From positions 1-42,517 of the IMG/VR virus record IMGVR_UViG_3300013132_005449: DNA of 42,517 bases. One strand, given 5' to 3'. A program made the position numbers and the translations under genes. Positions 7,819-35,712 of the stretch are shown here, in pieces. The DNA is from a virus. The notes under the pieces are model-generated. The model saw nothing but the letters and a program-made list of their open reading frames with translations. It ran no database searches and was not told where the DNA came from. Position 1 is the stretch's first letter, and the number at the start of each line of letters is the position of its first letter.

Positions 7819-7989
7819 ATGGGAAAATATTATGAAAACTTGGATGCTCTTATAGAGTTAATCAAGAAATTAGAAAAGAAACATATGCTTGCAGAGTTTA
7901 TTTTAGATTGCATACAGATTTCCAAACAAGACCCTAAACTAACTCCACATGAAGTAATTAAACAAGCAAAGAAAAAAAGATTATCATAA
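7819..7989 (+). CDS. Small hypothetical protein (56 aa)
   Basis: A short frame with a Lys-rich helical product (MGKYYENLDALIELIKKLEKK start). An upstream in-frame ATG at 7759 would overlap the conserved dUTPase motif 5 region, so the ATG at 7819, 11 nt after the dUTPase stop, is preferred. That ATG lies inside TTATTTATGGG. The stop overlaps the next gene's ATG (TAATG). No family is recognised. Confidence 0.6.
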   Translation: MGKYYENLDALIELIKKLEKKHMLAEFILDCIQISKQDPKLTPHEVIKQAKKKRLS

Positions 7990-9617
7990 TGTTGACTGTA
8001 GGATATTCAACAAGAGAACACAAACCTGAATTCATTGAGTACTTGAAAAAGTCTTCAGGTTTTAAAAAAATCCATGTAATTGAAAAAATTAATAATGGAG
8101 ACAAATCATTGTCTCAAGTGTACAATGAAATTTTGGAAGAATCTGAAACTGATATAGTTCTTCTCTGCCACGATGATATCTACTTCGATACAAACTCTTG
8201 GTATTCAAAGTTAATGAAACATTTTGAAAAATCTGACTTTGGAATCATAGGTATGGCTGGTACTACTTCAATGCCATCAAGTGGTCAATGGTGGGAAGAC
8301 AGAAGAAAAATGATTGGTATTGTTAATCATGAAAACCAAGGAAAGAAATGGGAATCGAAATATGCAGATTCATTTGGTAATTCAATCAGTCCCGTAGTTG
8401 TACTTGACGGGTTATTTTTAGCGGTTAGTAAAAGCAGAATTAAAAAAAAGTTTAATAAAGAATTCAAAGGATTTCACTTTTACGACATCCCTTTTTGTTT
8501 TGAAAATTTTTTAGAAGGTGTAAAATTAGGTGTAATTACAAACATAAGAATTACACACAAATCCATAGGAGCCACAAATCAACAGTGGGAAGAAAACCGA
8601 AAACTATTCGAAGAAAAGTACAAAGAATTTCTTCCTTCAAAAATACCTTTCGACTCACAAAGAAAAATCAAAGTTTTATTATCTTGTCTTTTTTTCAGAA
8701 CTTTTACAGGCTCTGAACTTTACGTTTATGAACTTGCAAGACAATTACAAAAATTAAATTGTGATGTAACCGTACTTTCTCAAGTAGGCGGTGTATTAAC
8801 AGACATGGCCAAAAGACAAGGTATTAAAGTTTTAAGTTTTGAACAAGCACCTGGTTTCAAAATGGGTGATGGAAAATGGGGATTTACCACAGATAAAGGA
8901 TTTCAACCATCTCAACCTAACATGATGTATCGGGTTTCAGAAGCCCCTTTCGATATTATACACATGCAACACAAACCAGTTGCCGAAAGAATGATGCAAT
9001 TTTATCCTGAAATCGAAAAAGTTTATTCAATTCATTCTGAAGTAATTGAACTTGAAAACCCAATCAAACACGAATCCATAAAAAAATACATCGCAATTAG
9101 ACCTGAGATTAGAGATTATCTAACAAATGAATTTCAAATTGAAGATAAAGATATCAAAATAATCTATAACCCAATTGATGAAGAAAAGTTCAAATCAAAA
9201 AATCCAAAAGATGAGAATTCAATTCTTTTCGTTGGTACTATCGATTACCTTAGAAGAGAAACCATAATGGACTTAATTGACTATACAAAAGAAATCGGTA
9301 AAGAGTTATGGTTAGTTGGAGAAGATAAGTCAAACTACTTACCTCAAATTCTTTTAAACTCACACGTCAAACATTTCCCCCCAACTTGGTCAGTGGAAAC
9401 ATTCATCAATAGATGTTCAGAAACTGCGGGTATTCAACTTGGAAGAACAACCATTGAAGGGTGGATGTGTGGAAAACCTGGATGGATTTATAAAGTAGAT
9501 TCGGGGGGATTCATTCAATCCAAAGAACTATATCAGGTTCCTGATGATATGGAAAAATACAAAGCTTCCTTGGTTGCACAAAAAATAAAATCAATTTACC
9601 AAGAAATATTATCGTGA
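7989..9617 (+). CDS. Bifunctional glycosyltransferase: GT2-like domain fused to GT4-like domain
   Basis: A 542-residue protein with two parts. Residues 1-~225 resemble the compact GT-A glycosyltransferases of the Glyco_tranf_2_5 type, with a DIVLLCHDDIYF metal/nucleotide site and a later VVVLDGLFLAVSKSR segment. From ~232 a second, GT-B enzyme starts afresh (KIKVLLSCLFFRTFTGSELYVYELARQLQ, broken by the usual Gly-rich turn). It includes IIYNPIDEEKF as the GT4 linker and SILFVGTIDYLRRE opening the donor domain. Two sequential sugar additions by one polypeptide are plausible. It is coupled to both neighbours by overlaps. Substrates are unknown. Confidence 0.82.
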   Translation: MLTVGYSTREHKPEFIEYLKKSSGFKKIHVIEKINNGDKSLSQVYNEILEESETDIVLLCHDDIYFDTNSWYSKLMKHFEKSDFGIIGMAGTTSMPSSGQWWEDRRKMIGIVNHENQGKKWESKYADSFGNSISPVVVLDGLFLAVSKSRIKKKFNKEFKGFHFYDIPFCFENFLEGVKLGVITNIRITHKSIGATNQQWEENRKLFEEKYKEFLPSKIPFDSQRKIKVLLSCLFFRTFTGSELYVYELARQLQKLNCDVTVLSQVGGVLTDMAKRQGIKVLSFEQAPGFKMGDGKWGFTTDKGFQPSQPNMMYRVSEAPFDIIHMQHKPVAERMMQFYPEIEKVYSIHSEVIELENPIKHESIKKYIAIRPEIRDYLTNEFQIEDKDIKIIYNPIDEEKFKSKNPKDENSILFVGTIDYLRRETIMDLIDYTKEIGKELWLVGEDKSNYLPQILLNSHVKHFPPTWSVETFINRCSETAGIQLGRTTIEGWMCGKPGWIYKVDSGGFIQSKELYQVPDDMEKYKASLVAQKIKSIYQEILS

Positions 9618-27013: not shown

Positions 27014-27480
27014 AAAAATTAATCAAAATAGATGAGCAAGACTTGGAAAATTTAGTCAAAAAAGCATTGAAAGAGCAAGTTCAAGAGCCAGCCAATTATA
27101 TGTTCTTTAGTAATCTTCAACAAATAAAAAGACAGTGTGAGATGTTATTGAACCTGGACCCACAAAAAGTTGACGATATTATTCAAAATGGACACGATTG
27201 GGCGGATGACCACGTATCCGAAGCTAAAACGAATATGGACCAAGTTTTCGATTTCATGATGAATGAAACAAAAAAAATGGACCAATATGTCGACTATGAA
27301 GATTTGAGTGAAGGTAGAAAGAAAACTGGAACCAAGTTGTGTGCTCGAGGTAAAGCAGCCGCAAAATCCAAATTCAAAGTTTATCCTTCAGCATATGCTA
27401 ACGGATATGCAGTATCTGTTTGTAAAGGAAAAATTAAAGGATTGGACGGTCAAAAAAGATGTTCAGGGGCATATTGTTAA
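27010..27480 (+). CDS. Hypothetical protein with C-terminal basic Cys-containing module
   Basis: A 156-residue protein. The N-terminus reads MKKLIKIDEQDLENLVKKALKEQ, a short amphipathic segment that recurs inside the 28818 gene product. The middle is acidic and helical. The last ~50 residues form a basic module, with LCARGKAAAKSKFKVYPSAY and CKGKIKGLDGQKRC, probably a small metal- or nucleic-acid-binding fold. I do not assign a named family. LKE followed by Q near residue 22 would fit a T4-type prohead protease cleavage site, suggesting a possible packaged internal protein. Confidence 0.6.
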   Translation: MKKLIKIDEQDLENLVKKALKEQVQEPANYMFFSNLQQIKRQCEMLLNLDPQKVDDIIQNGHDWADDHVSEAKTNMDQVFDFMMNETKKMDQYVDYEDLSEGRKKTGTKLCARGKAAAKSKFKVYPSAYANGYAVSVCKGKIKGLDGQKRCSGAYC

Positions 27481-27504
27481 TTCAATATAATTCATTTATA
27501 TTTG
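27473..27504 (+). promoter_or_regulatory. Bacteroidetes-type promoter (ATTG-N20-TATATTTG)
   Basis: ATTG at 27473-27476 and TATATTTG at 27497-27504 are separated by 20 nt, matching the known Bacteroidetes primary-sigma form (TTTG, ~20 nt, TAnnTTTG). The start codon at 27509 is only 4 nt downstream, so the transcript would be nearly leaderless, which lowers confidence. Confidence 0.5.
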
Positions 27505-27508
27505 TCCC

Positions 27509-27922
27509 ATGGAAAAACACGAAGTAGTCGGATTTATACCCAAACTTCTCTACAAAATATTTCTTTTCTTAAAAGATAAATTTGACCCAAGACCTCAAAT
27601 TACTGATGAGGAGACATTTGCCCGACAAATTTGTGATAAAATGATTCAACACTCAGAATCTAAGTTAAATTTTACCCCGCTATCTTCAAAAAGAATCATC
27701 AAAAACGAACCACTAAACATGTACATTGTTATGGAAAACTATACAGTACATGTTATTAACCACGTATACAGCTATAGTGTATATTTCCAAGACAGCAATT
27801 CCTTCAATCAACTAAAAGAACTGTTTGACCAGGTTATGGAAAAAAAACGTGAAAACTTGGAAACTGAAATTAGGAGTAATATTCAACACTCTCTTAAGAA
27901 AATTTTAGACAAACTTAATTAA
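27509..27922 (+). CDS. Hypothetical protein behind a host-like promoter
   Basis: A 137-residue protein without recognised family. It has a hydrophobic stretch (VGFIPKLLYKIFLFLKDKF) near the N-terminus, a beta-rich centre (NMYIVMENYTVHVINHVYSYSVYF) and a charged C-terminal helix. It ends the plus-strand block: the next gene is convergent and its stop lies 2 nt away. A Bacteroidetes-type promoter instead of a TATTTAT box suggests expression early or independently of the late genes. Confidence 0.65.
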   Translation: MEKHEVVGFIPKLLYKIFLFLKDKFDPRPQITDEETFARQICDKMIQHSESKLNFTPLSSKRIIKNEPLNMYIVMENYTVHVINHVYSYSVYFQDSNSFNQLKELFDQVMEKKRENLETEIRSNIQHSLKKILDKLN

Positions 27923-27924
27923 AG

Positions 27925-28818
27925 TTAGTATCTTCCCGTCATATATACATGAAGAACCTCAGGTATCCTATAACAAAAACTCTTCTCACCAACATTATTA
28001 ATACAAGGAACAGGTTGTAATTTTTTCAGAATCCTTTTCAACTCCAAAGGGGCATTTGAGAACATTTTATCAATTTCTTTTACAGGATATAATCTGTTAG
28101 AGTCGTATTGTTCTTTAAGAACTTTTTTAATGATATCTTTTAAACTTTCGTTTTTTGGTTTGTAAGAGGTCATGGTTGGCTTGTTACCTGTTCCAACTTT
28201 GGGGTCTTTTTTTTCGGCTTTTCTTTTTTGTTGGCACGCAGCTCTTTTTGCGGAGTCAGACATTTTTGAAGCAACTCCAGCAGCTCTACATTTCGGATAT
28301 CCTTTACTACTCGCTTCAGGTCTTCCACAAGGAGGATGTCCTCCACCTTCTTTTTTTCTACATATATTCACCCATGGTCCCTTAGGTTGTTTACTACCTT
28401 TAGGTTTTTTCTTTGTACCAAACCAAACAGCTAAATCTTCTTTCAAAACTGTTTCATATTCACTTTTTGGTATCTTCGCAATTCTTTTTATCTCTTCAGG
28501 GGTTCCAGGTGCATCACTACCCATAGGATTATATCCATTCATAGGATTTCCATCGTCATCACTTTGAGAAAACATTGATTTAGCCTTTTTTGCTTTGTTT
28601 ATCGCCTTTTTTTCATTTTTATTTATTATTTTGGTACTTCTTTCCATTTTACCATCATAACTATCATAAGCATTGGTTGCGCTCACGTAATCTGAAACGG
28701 CACTCACAAAAGGTCTCAATGGTTCTTTTTCCCATAATTGTGGGGCAAGTACCAAAGGAATTTTCATTCTTCCTGAACTTCCAGAACCTGTAGTCTCACT
28801 TATTGAAAATTTTTTCAT
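27925..28818 (-). CDS. Hypothetical protein with basic Cys/Gly-rich module
   Basis: A 297-residue protein. Residues ~1-60 are beta-like and ~60-85 very Lys-rich. A module near 130-205 contains WFGTKKKPKGSKQPKGPWVNICRK, PPCGRPEA, YPKCRAAGVASKMS and RAACQQKRKAEKK, a spaced-Cys basic domain that I have seen in hypothetical proteins of marine phages but cannot name. ESLKDIIKKVLKEQ follows, like the N-terminus of the 27010 product, then a compact C-terminus. A TATTTAT box precedes it. Late, perhaps internal head or DNA-associated; this is inference. Confidence 0.65.
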   Translation of the reverse strand: MKKFSISETTGSGSSGRMKIPLVLAPQLWEKEPLRPFVSAVSDYVSATNAYDSYDGKMERSTKIINKNEKKAINKAKKAKSMFSQSDDDGNPMNGYNPMGSDAPGTPEEIKRIAKIPKSEYETVLKEDLAVWFGTKKKPKGSKQPKGPWVNICRKKEGGGHPPCGRPEASSKGYPKCRAAGVASKMSDSAKRAACQQKRKAEKKDPKVGTGNKPTMTSYKPKNESLKDIIKKVLKEQYDSNRLYPVKEIDKMFSNAPLELKRILKKLQPVPCINNVGEKSFCYRIPEVLHVYMTGRY

Positions 28819-28846: not shown

Positions 28847-29044
28847 ATGGATGTTAACAACGAAATTTTAATCTCCAAAATAATTAAACTTGAACATGAG
28901 ATAACTTCAGAAGTACTGAATGGTCATAAACCTTTTGTCGGTGACCATTTAGAAAGTAAAAGAAATGAGGTTAATACTCTCAGATGTGTTGTATATGGTT
29001 ACGAAAGCATTTTTTGTAAAAAAAATTTGGCAGAAAAACCTTAA
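28847..29044 (+). CDS. Small hypothetical protein (65 aa)
   Basis: A 65-residue protein (MDVNNEILISKIIKLEHEITSEV start) with helical character and two Cys near the end. The plus-strand pair 28847 and 29073 is enclosed by minus-strand late genes on both sides, so it forms a small separate unit. No TATTTAT box faces it. The frame is short, and coding status is supported mainly by position between a divergent start and the next promoter. No family is recognised. Confidence 0.55.
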   Translation: MDVNNEILISKIIKLEHEITSEVLNGHKPFVGDHLESKRNEVNTLRCVVYGYESIFCKKNLAEKP

Positions 29045-29057
29045 TCAACTAAATTTG
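29026..29057 (+). promoter_or_regulatory. Bacteroidetes-type promoter (TTTG-N20-TAAATTTG)
   Basis: TTTG at 29026-29029, a 20-nt spacer, and TAAATTTG at 29050-29057 match the published Bacteroidetes primary-sigma consensus (TTTG and TAnnTTTG) at every fixed position. The ATG of the secreted-protein gene is 15 nt downstream. It overlaps the end of the 28847 gene. Confidence 0.65.
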
Positions 29058-29072
29058 TAAAAATTAAACTAT

Positions 29073-29576
29073 ATGAGACTTATACTTACTTTAATTCTAT
29101 CTTTCGCTCTTTCTGTATCATTTTCTCAAAACCATGGACTTATTCATTATTTGAATGGAATCAAAGCAGCTGAGGATATTGAGGCGATGAGGCAGAATGG
29201 TCTGAATTTTCAAATTCAACCTAAACTAATATCGGTCGATAGTTTTCCCAAAATAAATACACTTTTGGAAGATTATAAGTCATATATCTCCACCTATTAT
29301 AGACAGATTAACTCCATTACTTTTTTAGACACTTACCAATTCACTAAACTTGATAAAAGAAACATGAGAGTTCAAACTGTATGCTATGTCCAATATAAGA
29401 ATAGAGACTATAAGTGGGGTGGATGTAAGTATTTCGAAATTTTCTACGTAAACTCAGACCTTTATTTTACACCAACTGTAGTTGAATATTCTGACCGATA
29501 CGAGATGGAAGTCACTGTTGCCGAAAAGATAAATTATAGTTTGGTTACCGTTAGGTCTACTCTTCTCATTTTTTGA
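29073..29576 (+). CDS. Secreted (signal-peptide) protein, moron-like
   Basis: A 167-residue protein with an N-terminal Sec signal: MR, then the hydrophobic core LILTLILSFALSV, then SFS-Q, with likely cleavage before Gln19, as in many flavobacterial exported proteins. There is no lipobox Cys. The mature part has no recognised family, looks alpha/beta, and has one Cys pair candidate (VCYVQ, GGCKYF). A complete host-type promoter precedes it. Its 3' end overlaps the convergent OmpA-like gene by 43 nt. A role in the host periplasm, such as superinfection exclusion, is possible but not shown. Confidence 0.7.
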   Translation: MRLILTLILSFALSVSFSQNHGLIHYLNGIKAAEDIEAMRQNGLNFQIQPKLISVDSFPKINTLLEDYKSYISTYYRQINSITFLDTYQFTKLDKRNMRVQTVCYVQYKNRDYKWGGCKYFEIFYVNSDLYFTPTVVEYSDRYEMEVTVAEKINYSLVTVRSTLLIF

Positions 29577-30745
29577 TTTTCTTCTTCGGTACCACAGGTT
29601 CCTTTTGAACCTTGTGCAACTACTCTAAATTGAGCATTTTTTAATTGAGGTATATTGGTTATTAAGAAATTTTTCAGATTTTGAGCACGAGCTTTAGTGA
29701 GATTTAAATTCCCAATATCATTTTTATCTGCTTGCGGGTCCACTGTAACATCAGGATATGTTGATTTATCATCACTCCATTTACCATTGACCTTATTAGC
29801 CTCTTTATAACCAGCACTACATTTGGATGCTGATGACTGAATATCAAAAATAAATTTGGACATGTCGTTACCTTCTACGAATTTTTTAAACTGAATGAAA
29901 TTAGGGTCATTCAGAATTTCATCTGTTGTAGGAGTGGAAACATTGTCTTTAAATTTATCCCCCAAAGGAATCGCCTGTGGTGGTTCTGGCTTAGGTGTTT
30001 CTTCTGGTTTAGTAGGTACGTCTTTATTGAATCCTTTAGGCATTGGGTATGAAGTGACTAATGTTGGTAATACCAAAGAGAAATAACCGAGTTTTTTACC
30101 GTAAAAAACATCAGTTTCGGGGTTGAATAAAGTTGTTGAATTTGTTTCTAATTGGTCAAATTCGATAACTTTATTGTTTTGCGAATAACCCCAATTTTTC
30201 GTTGGGCCCGCAACTGCAATCATGACTGTTATCGGAGAACCGTTTCTGTAAGTAACACCATAGAACATTTGATTTAGAGCAACACCAGATTCTTCTTTCC
30301 CTCGATATAAAAATGAATTTTTCGTAATTTCGTTACCATTATCAAACCTAAATTCTTTTTTTGATAATTTGGTCATTGAAAATCTAAATTCGTCCTTTCC
30401 CATATCAGCCAAGACTTTGTCCTTAAGAACTTCAACCTTGATTGGTCTATTTTTTTTGTCCACTTCGGTAACTTTACATTGATAGGATTTTTCCATATCT
30501 CTAGCATAAATAAGATATGGTTTGTTCCAATCGACATAATCTGAACCAACAGACATTGAAGGTTGTGAAAGAAAATAAGCATAGTTTTCGTCTTGGTCTA
30601 ATAAAACGTTTTGGGTACCAGGACCCTGTACTGGATTTACCTCCCCTTGTTCTCTAACTAAATATAATTTCTTAGTTGCATTTTCATGTAATTGTAGAAT
30701 CCTAATTTTTTCTTCCACACCAATATTCCACGTTTGTTTAATCAT
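29534..30745 (-). CDS. OmpA-like C-terminal domain protein
   Basis: A 403-residue protein. The N-terminal ~240 residues are beta-rich and unassigned. A Pro-rich linker follows (KPEETPKPEPPQ). The C-terminal ~110 residues look like an OmpA/MotB peptidoglycan-binding domain, with strand FIFDIQSSAS, then LNLTKARAQNLKNFLI (the NxxLSxxRAxxVxxxL helix), AQFRVVAQGSKGT and ENQKMRRVDLTV (the family's N-x-RRVE-x-x). There is no signal peptide, so cell-wall anchoring by the usual export route is unlikely. A virion protein that touches peptidoglycan during infection is an alternative. It lies after the capsid terminator with its own TATTTAT box. Confidence 0.6.
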   Translation of the reverse strand: MIKQTWNIGVEEKIRILQLHENATKKLYLVREQGEVNPVQGPGTQNVLLDQDENYAYFLSQPSMSVGSDYVDWNKPYLIYARDMEKSYQCKVTEVDKKNRPIKVEVLKDKVLADMGKDEFRFSMTKLSKKEFRFDNGNEITKNSFLYRGKEESGVALNQMFYGVTYRNGSPITVMIAVAGPTKNWGYSQNNKVIEFDQLETNSTTLFNPETDVFYGKKLGYFSLVLPTLVTSYPMPKGFNKDVPTKPEETPKPEPPQAIPLGDKFKDNVSTPTTDEILNDPNFIQFKKFVEGNDMSKFIFDIQSSASKCSAGYKEANKVNGKWSDDKSTYPDVTVDPQADKNDIGNLNLTKARAQNLKNFLITNIPQLKNAQFRVVAQGSKGTCGTEEENQKMRRVDLTVTKL

Positions 30746-30761
30746 GATGAAAACTTTATTA

Positions 30762-30768
30762 ATAAATA
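30762..30768 (-). promoter_or_regulatory. TATTTAT box upstream of the OmpA-like gene
   Basis: Sense-strand TATTTAT (GGATATTTATTAATAAAG) lies 16 nt before the ATG at 30745 and just after the capsid-gene terminator, so this gene appears to have its own transcription start. Confidence 0.5.
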
Positions 30769-30775
30769 TCCATAT

Positions 30776-32668: not shown

Positions 32669-34336
32669 TTACCCCAACTTAGACATTAAGTCTTTCATTC
32701 TCATGAATTGAGGATTTTCGTATGTTTTTGATTCAATCAAATTAACAGCTGAACCTGACGATACAGTATTGTTGATTTTCTTTTCAACTGACTCATTGAT
32801 AGATTTTGTTTCAGTTTTTGTTAACTCATCTTTCAATGATTTGTAAAGAGACTTAGACTCTTTCAAAGATTCAACATCGTCGAATCTTCTAAGAATGTTA
32901 ATTTTCTCTTTCTTTGTAGTTGAATGTTCTGTAAACAATCTTGTAGCGTATGCTAAGTTTGAATTGAAGATTGCAACTTCATTCAGTTTTTCTCTGAATA
33001 CATTAAGTGCTTTTCTGTACTCTTCATTTTTTTCTCTCAACATTGAGATTTCAGCTTCTAAAGATTCTACCTTAACACCATTTTTTCCGTAAACATATTT
33101 ACGGTTGTTACTGATGCCTTTTCTCAAACCTCTACCTTCTTTTGAACCATTTCCATAAGTTCTTGCAGCTTCTTTAGTTTCTCTTTTTTCAAAACCTGCG
33201 TCATCTCTACGAGCCTTAGTGGTTTTGAGGTCTTTAGAAGCAATTTTACCGTGCTTCATAGATAACCTTTCATCCTCTCTGTCTTTGTATCCTTGACCTT
33301 CTTTTGTTTCTGCCTTAACAACTTTGGATTTTCCTTCCATATTTTCACCCTTCTTGTATTCGAATTTAGCTTTACCAGTTCCCATCATTTTTGGACCTTC
33401 TTTTTTGTCCTCTTTGAATCCACCAGCTGCTTTGTCCTTATATTTGAATTTAGGACCGCTACCAATTCCAACACCTTTAGGTTTTACAGACATTTTACTC
33501 TCTTTAGTTTCAGATTTCTTTGCCTTTTTGTGATTGTATGCTTCCTCCAATTGGTCATCCTCTTCATCAAGCATGTCGTCATCTTCTTCGAGGTGGTCTT
33601 CACCTTCTTCGAGGTCTTCTTCATCCTCTTCATCAAGCATGTCTTCACCTTCTTCGAGGTCTTCTTCATCCTCTTCATCAAGCATGTCGTCATCTTCTTC
33701 ATCTAGCATGTCGTCATCTTCTTCGAGGTCTTCTTCATCCTCTTCGTCAAATTCGATTTCATACATGACTTCTTCATCGTCTTCCATTTCTTGGTCGTCT
33801 TCGATGTTACCATCGTTCGAAAAAATTGCGTCGATTACACTCTGTGTATCTACGTCGTCCATTTCGTCCATTTGCATTTCTTCTAAGTTTTTGTCTTCTT
33901 CAGACTCACCAAGCTTTACAAGGTATTCTGTGTCTGCGTTAGTATCAGAAAGATGAATATCTTCACCGTCTTTTTTCACGATGATACCATCTTCTTCTCC
34001 CATTGCTTTAAACACTTTGAGAATTTCCTCGTCGGAAGCGTCAGTTAAATCTATTGGAGTTTCATCAGAATCCATGTCCATATCAATTTCCATGTCCATG
34101 TCTTCTTCATTATCTGTATCCATATCTATGTCTAACTCTTCGTCATCCATGTCCATGTCTACTTCTGCATCAACCTCGGTTTCATCATCTTGTTCTGAAA
34201 GAGATTCTTTTACTAATTGATTGATTTCTTCCTTCATTGTAGAAGCAAGTATTCCTTTTGCATTTTCGGCGATAGCCTCTTCAACATTTTTCATTTGAAT
34301 GAGCGCCTCTTCAACTATGTTTTTAGTTTCTTGCAT
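32669..34336 (-). CDS. Acidic prohead core scaffolding protein (T4 gp22-like)
   Basis: A 555-residue protein placed between protease and capsid genes, where T4 has gene 22. Residues ~50-270 are extremely acidic, with tandem units of the form DEEDEEDLEEGEDML. Residues ~270-420 are Lys/Gly-rich. The C-terminal ~140 residues resemble T4-type scaffold cores: a coiled coil (VESLEAEISMLREKNEEYRKAL), then NSNLAYATRLFTE and KINILRRFDDVESLKESK. It would form the inner core that shapes the prohead and is later degraded by the protease. It is far longer than T4 gp22 (269 aa) because of the acidic repeats. Confidence 0.82.
   Translation of the reverse strand: MQETKNIVEEALIQMKNVEEAIAENAKGILASTMKEEINQLVKESLSEQDDETEVDAEVDMDMDDEELDIDMDTDNEEDMDMEIDMDMDSDETPIDLTDASDEEILKVFKAMGEEDGIIVKKDGEDIHLSDTNADTEYLVKLGESEEDKNLEEMQMDEMDDVDTQSVIDAIFSNDGNIEDDQEMEDDEEVMYEIEFDEEDEEDLEEDDDMLDEEDDDMLDEEDEEDLEEGEDMLDEEDEEDLEEGEDHLEEDDDMLDEEDDQLEEAYNHKKAKKSETKESKMSVKPKGVGIGSGPKFKYKDKAAGGFKEDKKEGPKMMGTGKAKFEYKKGENMEGKSKVVKAETKEGQGYKDREDERLSMKHGKIASKDLKTTKARRDDAGFEKRETKEAARTYGNGSKEGRGLRKGISNNRKYVYGKNGVKVESLEAEISMLREKNEEYRKALNVFREKLNEVAIFNSNLAYATRLFTEHSTTKKEKINILRRFDDVESLKESKSLYKSLKDELTKTETKSINESVEKKINNTVSSGSAVNLIESKTYENPQFMRMKDLMSKLG
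33545..33765 (-). repeat. Degenerate tandem repeat encoding acidic blocks in the scaffold gene
   Basis: Repeats of a unit reading (plus strand) CTTCTTCGAGGTCTTCTTC, with ATCCTCTTCATCAAGCATGTC between, recur four or more times in slightly different order. In the scaffold frame they encode DMLDEEDEEDLEEGE-type blocks. The pattern suggests expansion by slippage or unequal recombination. Confidence 0.8.
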
Positions 34337-34992: not shown

Positions 34993-35712
34993 TTATTTTC
35001 CTAAATAATGAGTAAGTTTTTTCATCAAGTCAATAGATTTACCCATTGGCTCGATTGATTTTTCACGGTTCTTCTTTTCCTCTTCTAAGTTTTCTTCATA
35101 CTTGGACCTGTCGTCAGGGTCAGTAAAAAGGTAAGCTCCTGGTGTTGATGGTGATGAAACTAAATCAAAACATATCAATTCAAAATCATCTTGAACTTCG
35201 TTTCTTTCTCCAATTTTTTTCAACGAACCCACTCCACGAGAAGATATTCCCAACGTAACCCCTTGTCTCATAAGATTTGCAGCAACATCTCCTTTTGATG
35301 AAACAATTCCTCTTTCGTGAAAACCTGGTGTTGTTAATAATTTTAATTTACCCATCAAGATATTTTTATCCCACCATATGTCTGTGATAATGTGCGATAC
35401 TCTATCTAAGTCAATTAATGAAGACTCAGGGTGATTCAACTCTGAAGTAGAAAGTCCTTTAGATATAATTTTTTTGTAATTATCTGCTTCTCTTTTTAAA
35501 ATTTTTTCAGGATAAAATCTACCGTTTCTATTCGGTGTATCGTATTTCTGAAGAACAGCATAGAATTCAAAAGGGTTCCTATAATCTAAATTTGCTGCTT
35601 CCTGTAGAACTTTTATATTTTTTTCATCTTTTGGTGAAACAAAACCTGCATCCATTTCTATCAAAATTCCATGACCAAGTTCGCTTGCTTCCAATATTCT
35701 TAAATTCTTCAT
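34993..35712 (-). CDS. 21: Prohead core protease (T4 gp21-like)
   Basis: A 239-residue serine protease of the phage prohead type. TPNRNGRFYPEKIL (59-72) and ELNHPESS (91-98, catalytic His94) are followed by GISSRGVGSL (155-164, nucleophile Ser157 or Ser158) and CFDLVSSPSTPGAYL (181-195), all hallmarks of gp21-like enzymes. It cleaves scaffold and capsid precursors after (L/I)-x-E, and such a site is present in the capsid protein here. The C-terminal ~35 residues are highly charged. It has its own TATTTAT box 13 nt upstream. Confidence 0.93.
   Translation of the reverse strand: MKNLRILEASELGHGILIEMDAGFVSPKDEKNIKVLQEAANLDYRNPFEFYAVLQKYDTPNRNGRFYPEKILKREADNYKKIISKGLSTSELNHPESSLIDLDRVSHIITDIWWDKNILMGKLKLLTTPGFHERGIVSSKGDVAANLMRQGVTLGISSRGVGSLKKIGERNEVQDDFELICFDLVSSPSTPGAYLFTDPDDRSKYEENLEEEKKNREKSIEPMGKSIDLMKKLTHYLGK

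Follow-up and report, generated by a model that had tools for sequence, protein, structure and literature searches.

A secreted-protein gene of a T4-like phage and its convergent tagged late gene form a cassette exchanged as a unit

The window analysed here, the whole 42,517-nucleotide stretch (42.5 kb) of virus record IMGVR_UViG_3300013132_005449, comes from a T4-like phage and carries on its plus strand a small gene for a predicted secreted protein (29073-29576), which converges on a late gene of the minus strand (29534-30745). Comparison of nucleotide and protein sequences among related phages establishes that the secreted gene belongs to a cassette of two genes exchanged as a unit, the other member being the convergent late gene, a presumed effector that begins with a constant N-terminal tag. 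An earlier note on this DNA had described a signal-peptide gene opposite to the late genes, provided with a full Bacteroidetes promoter and convergent on a late gene, and this description is borne out by the exact promoter site, the Q-rule signal and the conservation of the promoter and of the ORF. The same note had regarded the gene as an independent unit, or moron. That label is too simple and is not supported, because the families of the two halves correspond, tandem and unlinked copies are likewise paired, and both halves are swapped together.

The exchange is visible between contig L021, which has the cassette type of the window, and contig L030, which has another type: they are 95.7% identical on both flanks and unrelated between codon 33 of the effector gene and a point near codon 10 in the secreted one. 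The same arrangement is found in the pairs L034/L036, L034/L044, L013/L087 and L012/L109, and the junctions fall at effector codons 32-37 and within the first 16 codons of the secreted partner. The parts that remain constant are the tag on one side and, on the other, the flank, in several cases with the promoter and the start of the signal peptide; what varies is the mature portion of both proteins.

Pairing of the two genes was evaluated on 61 distinct tagged genes from related uncultured phages, clustered at 95% and with at least 300 bp of sequence beyond the gene. In 55 of them the next gene is convergent and its product has a signal peptide or lipobox, against 39 of 342 control long open reading frames (ORFs) (Fisher p 4e-35), a convergent ORF in L025 having been dropped from the count as a false signal-peptide call. 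When a host-type promoter is added to the convergent secreted gene, the counts are 36/61 for tagged genes and 10/342 for control ORFs. Orientation is convergent in all cassettes, and no secreted gene follows the effector on the same strand. Furthermore, each copy of a tandemly duplicated tagged gene has its own secreted gene, and a contig of 142 kb (142,443 bases; L105/L134, the same contig as L084) bears another tagged gene, at a distance of about 80 kb and away from the capsid gene, whose convergent secreted partner is a CAP-domain protein (around 6001-7826 of L105). The secreted family of the window is found only with its own effector family (14/14), and secreted families nest within effector families. 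Among 133 cassette pairs with homologous secreted proteins, the effectors are homologous too in 127, and the identities correlate (rho 0.79). A spanin/Rz1 function, considered because some partners are small lipoproteins, was rejected, most partners being of the signal peptidase I (SPI) type and the families too diverse. In L027, L032, L034 and others, a further late-strand gene (MNY(A/T)T..V, 241-323 amino acids) lies between the cassette and the gene 27925-28818; the window is devoid of it.

The secreted ORF is real, because homologues are encoded by 15 other contigs and because, among relatives, the nonsynonymous divergence (dN) is far below the synonymous one (dS). A 99.9%-identical contig, L002, reads TAG where the window allele reads TAT; the window allele has therefore lost this stop, and the conserved protein is the shorter form given in Table 1. 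The last 13 codons of the ORF, which overlap the convergent gene, exist only through this loss, and the overlap of the two genes amounts to 43 bp in the window allele and 4 bp in the conserved form. The N-terminus, MRLILTLILSFALSVSFS followed by QN, combines a positive charge, a hydrophobic core and, by heuristic prediction, a Ser/Gln cleavage site that fits the Bacteroidetes Q-rule for signal peptides (PMC5837995). The pattern [ASG]Q stands at the expected place in 42 of the 55 partner secreted proteins, and a lipobox is present in 5 others. Among relatives, Cys104 and Cys118 disappear jointly, a pattern fitting a disulfide bond. Family searches of the secreted protein in Pfam, PHROGs, PADLOC and PDB profiles returned nothing credible, and its AlphaFold model, with a predicted local distance difference test score (pLDDT) of 39.5, was too poor for comparison and was not used. 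A 65-amino acid ORF (28847-29044, plus strand) sits between the divergent gene 27925-28818 and the secreted gene, a place occupied in many relatives by a gene of 74-82 amino acids (MEQ..QP.G.LF.S).

The promoter that precedes the ATG at 29073 is of the TAnnTTTG/TTTG type, the documented -7/-33 consensus of the Bacteroidota phylum (PMC2483708). The strict TTTG motif has 12 matches in the window against ~4.4 expected, mostly within genes; chance alone makes it common, and its raw count was not accepted as evidence. This particular site is shown to be real by the conservation of its position across independent lineages while the spacer drifts: TTG-N18-20-TAnnTTTG, its spacer diverged, occurs between -50 and -38 relative to the ATG in L003, L004/5/8/9, L006/7/10, L011, L021 and L093. 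The promoter is absent before the secreted gene in members L012-L014 of the same family, and a host-type motif precedes 2 of 304 other ORFs taken as control. Such a promoter makes early expression of the secreted gene plausible. Elsewhere in the late region, a 137-amino acid gene with a hydrophobic segment near its N-terminus (27509-27922, plus strand) has its own host-type promoter with almost no leader (27474-27504, TTG-N20-TATATTTG), kept in 9 of the 11 relatives checked.

The tag of the convergent partner follows the pattern MIKQTWNI..EEK.RIL.LHE.ATK..YL..EQ. At least 255 other viral loci begin with the same 33 residues, the rest of their sequence being often unrelated, and in hhalign comparisons between effector clusters the tag is the only common region. 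It is closed by [LIVMF]xE[QDN] in 56 of 60 distinct versions, and a matching INE/A site is seen in the translation of the window capsid protein. Judged from these motifs, the tag end looks like a T4-prohead-protease-like site and the tag itself like a capsid-targeting segment, which the S77 protease of the window could cut. The C-terminal part of the partner is, according to its structural model, a domain of OmpA fold: VIA-align gave Z scores of ~10-10.9 over 104-119 residues to the peptidoglycan-binding domains of TagL, OmpA and Pal, and the domain shows a signature of the N..L[ST]..RA type as well as two cysteines that never vary. The Pfam OmpA family (PF00691) reaches E=0.03 on the window partner, below the cut-off, but is matched by 13/13 members of sister cluster A4 (best 8.5e-10) and, weakly, by 7/19 in a third cluster. 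No match of the fold search covered the middle of the partner (residues about 55-235).

One effector, in L094, has instead a TseH-like (type VI effector) domain (E=3e-8) in which LGHGG and NCG are retained, motifs that would supply the candidate His and Cys residues expected of permuted NlpC/P60 enzymes (PMC12994826). In this cassette (L094:4176-5905) the TseH-like tagged protein faces a Peptidase_C92 (YiiX-like) lipoprotein, both of the permuted NlpC/P60 group.

Effector genes have another type of upstream element. The motif TATTTATN, recurrent ~22 bp ahead of late genes in this group, is found upstream of 61/64 tagged genes, and a host-type promoter before 0/71 effector genes. Among 527 long ORFs, the sense motif TATTTATA lies ~22 bp before the ATG in 121, and TATAAATA precedes 9; the late-type motif of this phage group, TATTTATA, is the reverse complement of T4's TATAAATA. 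A reading of TATAAATAT before the gene of 74-82 amino acids as a T4 late promoter, with the sister-clade partners as late genes, was dropped because the sense late motif of the clade is TATTTATA and TATAAATAT more probably pertains to the divergent gene.

Table 1. Positions in the window of the cassette components, their control elements and the candidate tag protease
Feature	Position	Strand	Basis
Bacteroidota sigma-A type promoter, TTTG-N20-TAAATTTG	29026..29057	+	sequence; conserved position, diverged spacer in most relatives
Secreted protein gene, 167 amino acids as read (conserved 154 amino acids, 29073-29537)	29073..29576	+	ORF, homologues, dN vs dS
Sec/SPI signal peptide, predicted cleavage S18/Q19 (Bacteroidetes Q-rule)	29073..29126	+	hydrophobic N-terminus, Ser/Gln site
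Convergent late-strand partner, presumed effector, 403 amino acids: constant tag, variable middle, OmpA-like C-terminal domain	29534..30745	-	late-type motif, model + fold search
OmpA-like peptidoglycan-binding domain, partner residues about 248-403	29537..30004	-	fold match, Pfam
Constant 33-residue N-terminal tag, capsid-targeting-like, ends in [LIVMF]xE site	30647..30745	-	tag matches, site counts, hhalign
Late-type promoter-like element before effector gene, sense ATATTTATTAAT	30758..30769	-	motif counts upstream of tagged genes
T4-type prohead core protease (Peptidase_S77), could cut the tag	34993..35712	-	Pfam PF03420 E=9.9e-22

The genes for the Gp23 major capsid protein, the Gp20 portal, the S77 prohead protease and a T4-type terminase are all on the minus strand of the window. 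Through capsid and portal, the closest cultured relatives are Flavobacterium phage immuto and Microcystis phage Mel-JY01, which are distant (~36-45% identity). None of the 41 window genes is preceded by a Shine-Dalgarno-like sequence and, because this is combined with Q-rule signal peptides and TAnnTTTG promoters, the host of the phage group is probably a member of the Bacteroidota. The annotated phage collection contained no relative of the secreted protein, the partner or the tag, and no isolate with the cassette, and a pattern scan of bacterial genomes found no relative of the secreted protein or the tag. Outside the cassette, a 542-amino acid protein with two glycosyltransferase domains (7989-9617, plus strand) is possibly part of a phage-borne cluster of surface-sugar genes, and a 555-amino acid gene (32669-34336) has short internal repeats at about 33621-33750, its middle part differing in length among relatives.

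How the two halves might work together can be proposed as follows. The constant tag would direct a late envelope-acting protein, made of the OmpA-like domain and a variable part, into the prohead, where the gp21-type protease of the phage would cut the tag off, and the effector would then exit with the DNA into the envelope of the next host. Right after infection, unmodified host RNA polymerase would transcribe the secreted gene from its TTTG/TAnnTTTG promoter, and the secreted protein would reach the periplasm and neutralise the matching effector of later-arriving virions. An encounter of the two halves would be restricted to lysis or to the envelope of a cell already infected when another virion attacks it. 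Superinfection exclusion specific to the cassette type would result, together with resistance to lysis from without, comparable to the action of T4 Spackle on the gp5 lysozyme. A virion-borne envelope effector and its cognate secreted antagonist, Spackle-like but polymorphic and modular, is thus the reading that we tentatively prefer, at slightly less than an even chance. The wider proposal of a phage-phage compatibility system, in which swappable effectors are packaged behind a constant tag, antagonists are made early from the opposite strand and the cassette type sets the exclusion groups, is put forward with a little more reserve. The role in blocking superinfection that the earlier note had suggested for the secreted protein is retained as the best guess.

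Several observations weigh against this effector-antagonist reading. Most effectors show a peptidoglycan-binding domain only and no enzyme, and a profile search of PDB chains found no similarity of the secreted protein to Spackle. The related tagged genes L047, L085, L092 and L170 have no secreted partner. In a sister clade that includes L012-L014, the secreted gene lacks its own promoter and lies behind the gene of 74-82 amino acids, so the timing of expression may differ there. The motif TATTTATA also occurs within 11 of 36 partner promoters, none of them in the family of the window. Finally, a resemblance to enzymes (Peptidase_C92, CAP) is seen in some secreted partners and would be unexpected if they were nothing but inhibitors.

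These enzyme-like partners fit another proposal, which we consider rather unlikely, that the secreted protein cooperates with the convergent product in the periplasm without any inhibition. It could be, for example, a ligand or chaperone of the OmpA-like domain when the envelope is remodelled or the cell lysed, or an enzyme making a product for the tagged protein to use. OmpA-like domains do have known periplasmic protein partners, YfiR-YfiB and TolB-Pal entries appeared in the fold search, and a physical partnership would account for the co-swapping equally well. However, the host-type promoter places the secreted gene on another schedule than the late effector, and the many unrelated secreted families suit the diversification of antagonists better than a shared chaperone role. 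The co-swaps could also be explained by recombination at the conserved tag and flank, moving whatever lies between, in which case the secreted gene would be an ordinary moron with no functional link to its neighbor, acting in envelope modification or in a general superinfection block. As the junctions lie in conserved sequence, linkage alone would give joint swaps at one locus. It would hardly explain the unrelated secreted families found beside nearly every tagged gene, at each tandem copy and at the unlinked second locus, since cargo picked up at random should not consist of secreted proteins every time; moreover, some junctions fall within the signal-peptide region, so that only the mature part is exchanged. 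For these reasons we judge such hitch-hiking to be unlikely, somewhat more so than cooperation.

An action against the host appears improbable to us, whether it were directed by the secreted protein against a defence that senses the host envelope or by the injected tagged protein against a host factor. The variability of the cassette is compatible with an arms race against hosts, and T4 IPI* counters the Gmr nuclease. More generally, the tagged internal proteins of T4 are anti-restriction factors (PMC3012670). Nevertheless, the OmpA-like domain and the secreted partner point to the periplasm and not to cytoplasmic DNA defence, and the protection from host defence evoked in the earlier note received no specific support, PADLOC giving no match.

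If the effector-antagonist reading is true, virion proteins and superinfection immunity would be inherited as one exchangeable module, like bacterial toxin and immunity genes, and the pattern of exclusion among related phages would acquire a molecular basis open to testing. The cassettes would also provide new envelope effectors against Bacteroidota, each with its natural inhibitor, and a portable head-targeting tag. A common annotation habit would be corrected as well, in that a secreted "moron" on the opposite strand may form a single system with the adjoining late gene.

Among known systems, T4 Spackle (gp61.3) is an early periplasmic protein that inhibits the gp5 lysozyme (PMC7677548). The secreted protein is likewise small, with a signal peptide and a likely disulfide, and would, like Spackle, be made early and act in the periplasm, on a presumed target that is a virion-borne protein acting on the cell wall. 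In contrast to Spackle, the gene of this target lies next to the secreted gene in convergent orientation, and the two form a polymorphic pair that is swapped together; the target itself would bear a head-targeting tag instead of being a tail lysozyme. The internal proteins of T4 vary widely and have in common just the capsid-targeting sequence (PMC3012670). As in IPI-IPIII, the cassette combines a constant N-terminal tag having an [LI]xE-like site with a highly variable remainder, a location among head genes and an S77 protease of the phage, but its tag, of 33 residues, differs in sequence, the likeness considered here being one of architecture, and its cargo is OmpA-like or TseH-like, each cargo gene with a convergent secreted partner. 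We know of no such secreted partner for the T4 internal proteins.

Polymorphic toxins and the effector-immunity modules of type VI secretion systems (T6SS) likewise have a constant delivery segment, a variable effector, an adjacent cognate gene and joint exchange, and sequential displacement of effectors is described for the T6SS of Vibrio cholerae (PMC5361080); the TseH-like domain is a likeness confined to one effector (L094). Unlike these modules, whose immunity gene lies behind the toxin gene in the same orientation, the cassette is convergent, its partner gene having a host-type promoter and the opposite orientation, and it belongs to a virulent-type phage with likely delivery by the virion. 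Morons for exclusion lipoproteins of the Cor/Llp type also have their own promoter, an opposite-strand location and an exported product, whereas the secreted gene is not an independent insertion and is systematically tied to the neighboring late gene. No description of a convergent, exchangeable cassette of virion effector and secreted partner was found in the open-access papers searched. The cassette resembles Spackle, the T4 internal proteins and effector-immunity modules in one respect each and is a demonstrated member of none, and there is a real chance that it constitutes a distinct system.
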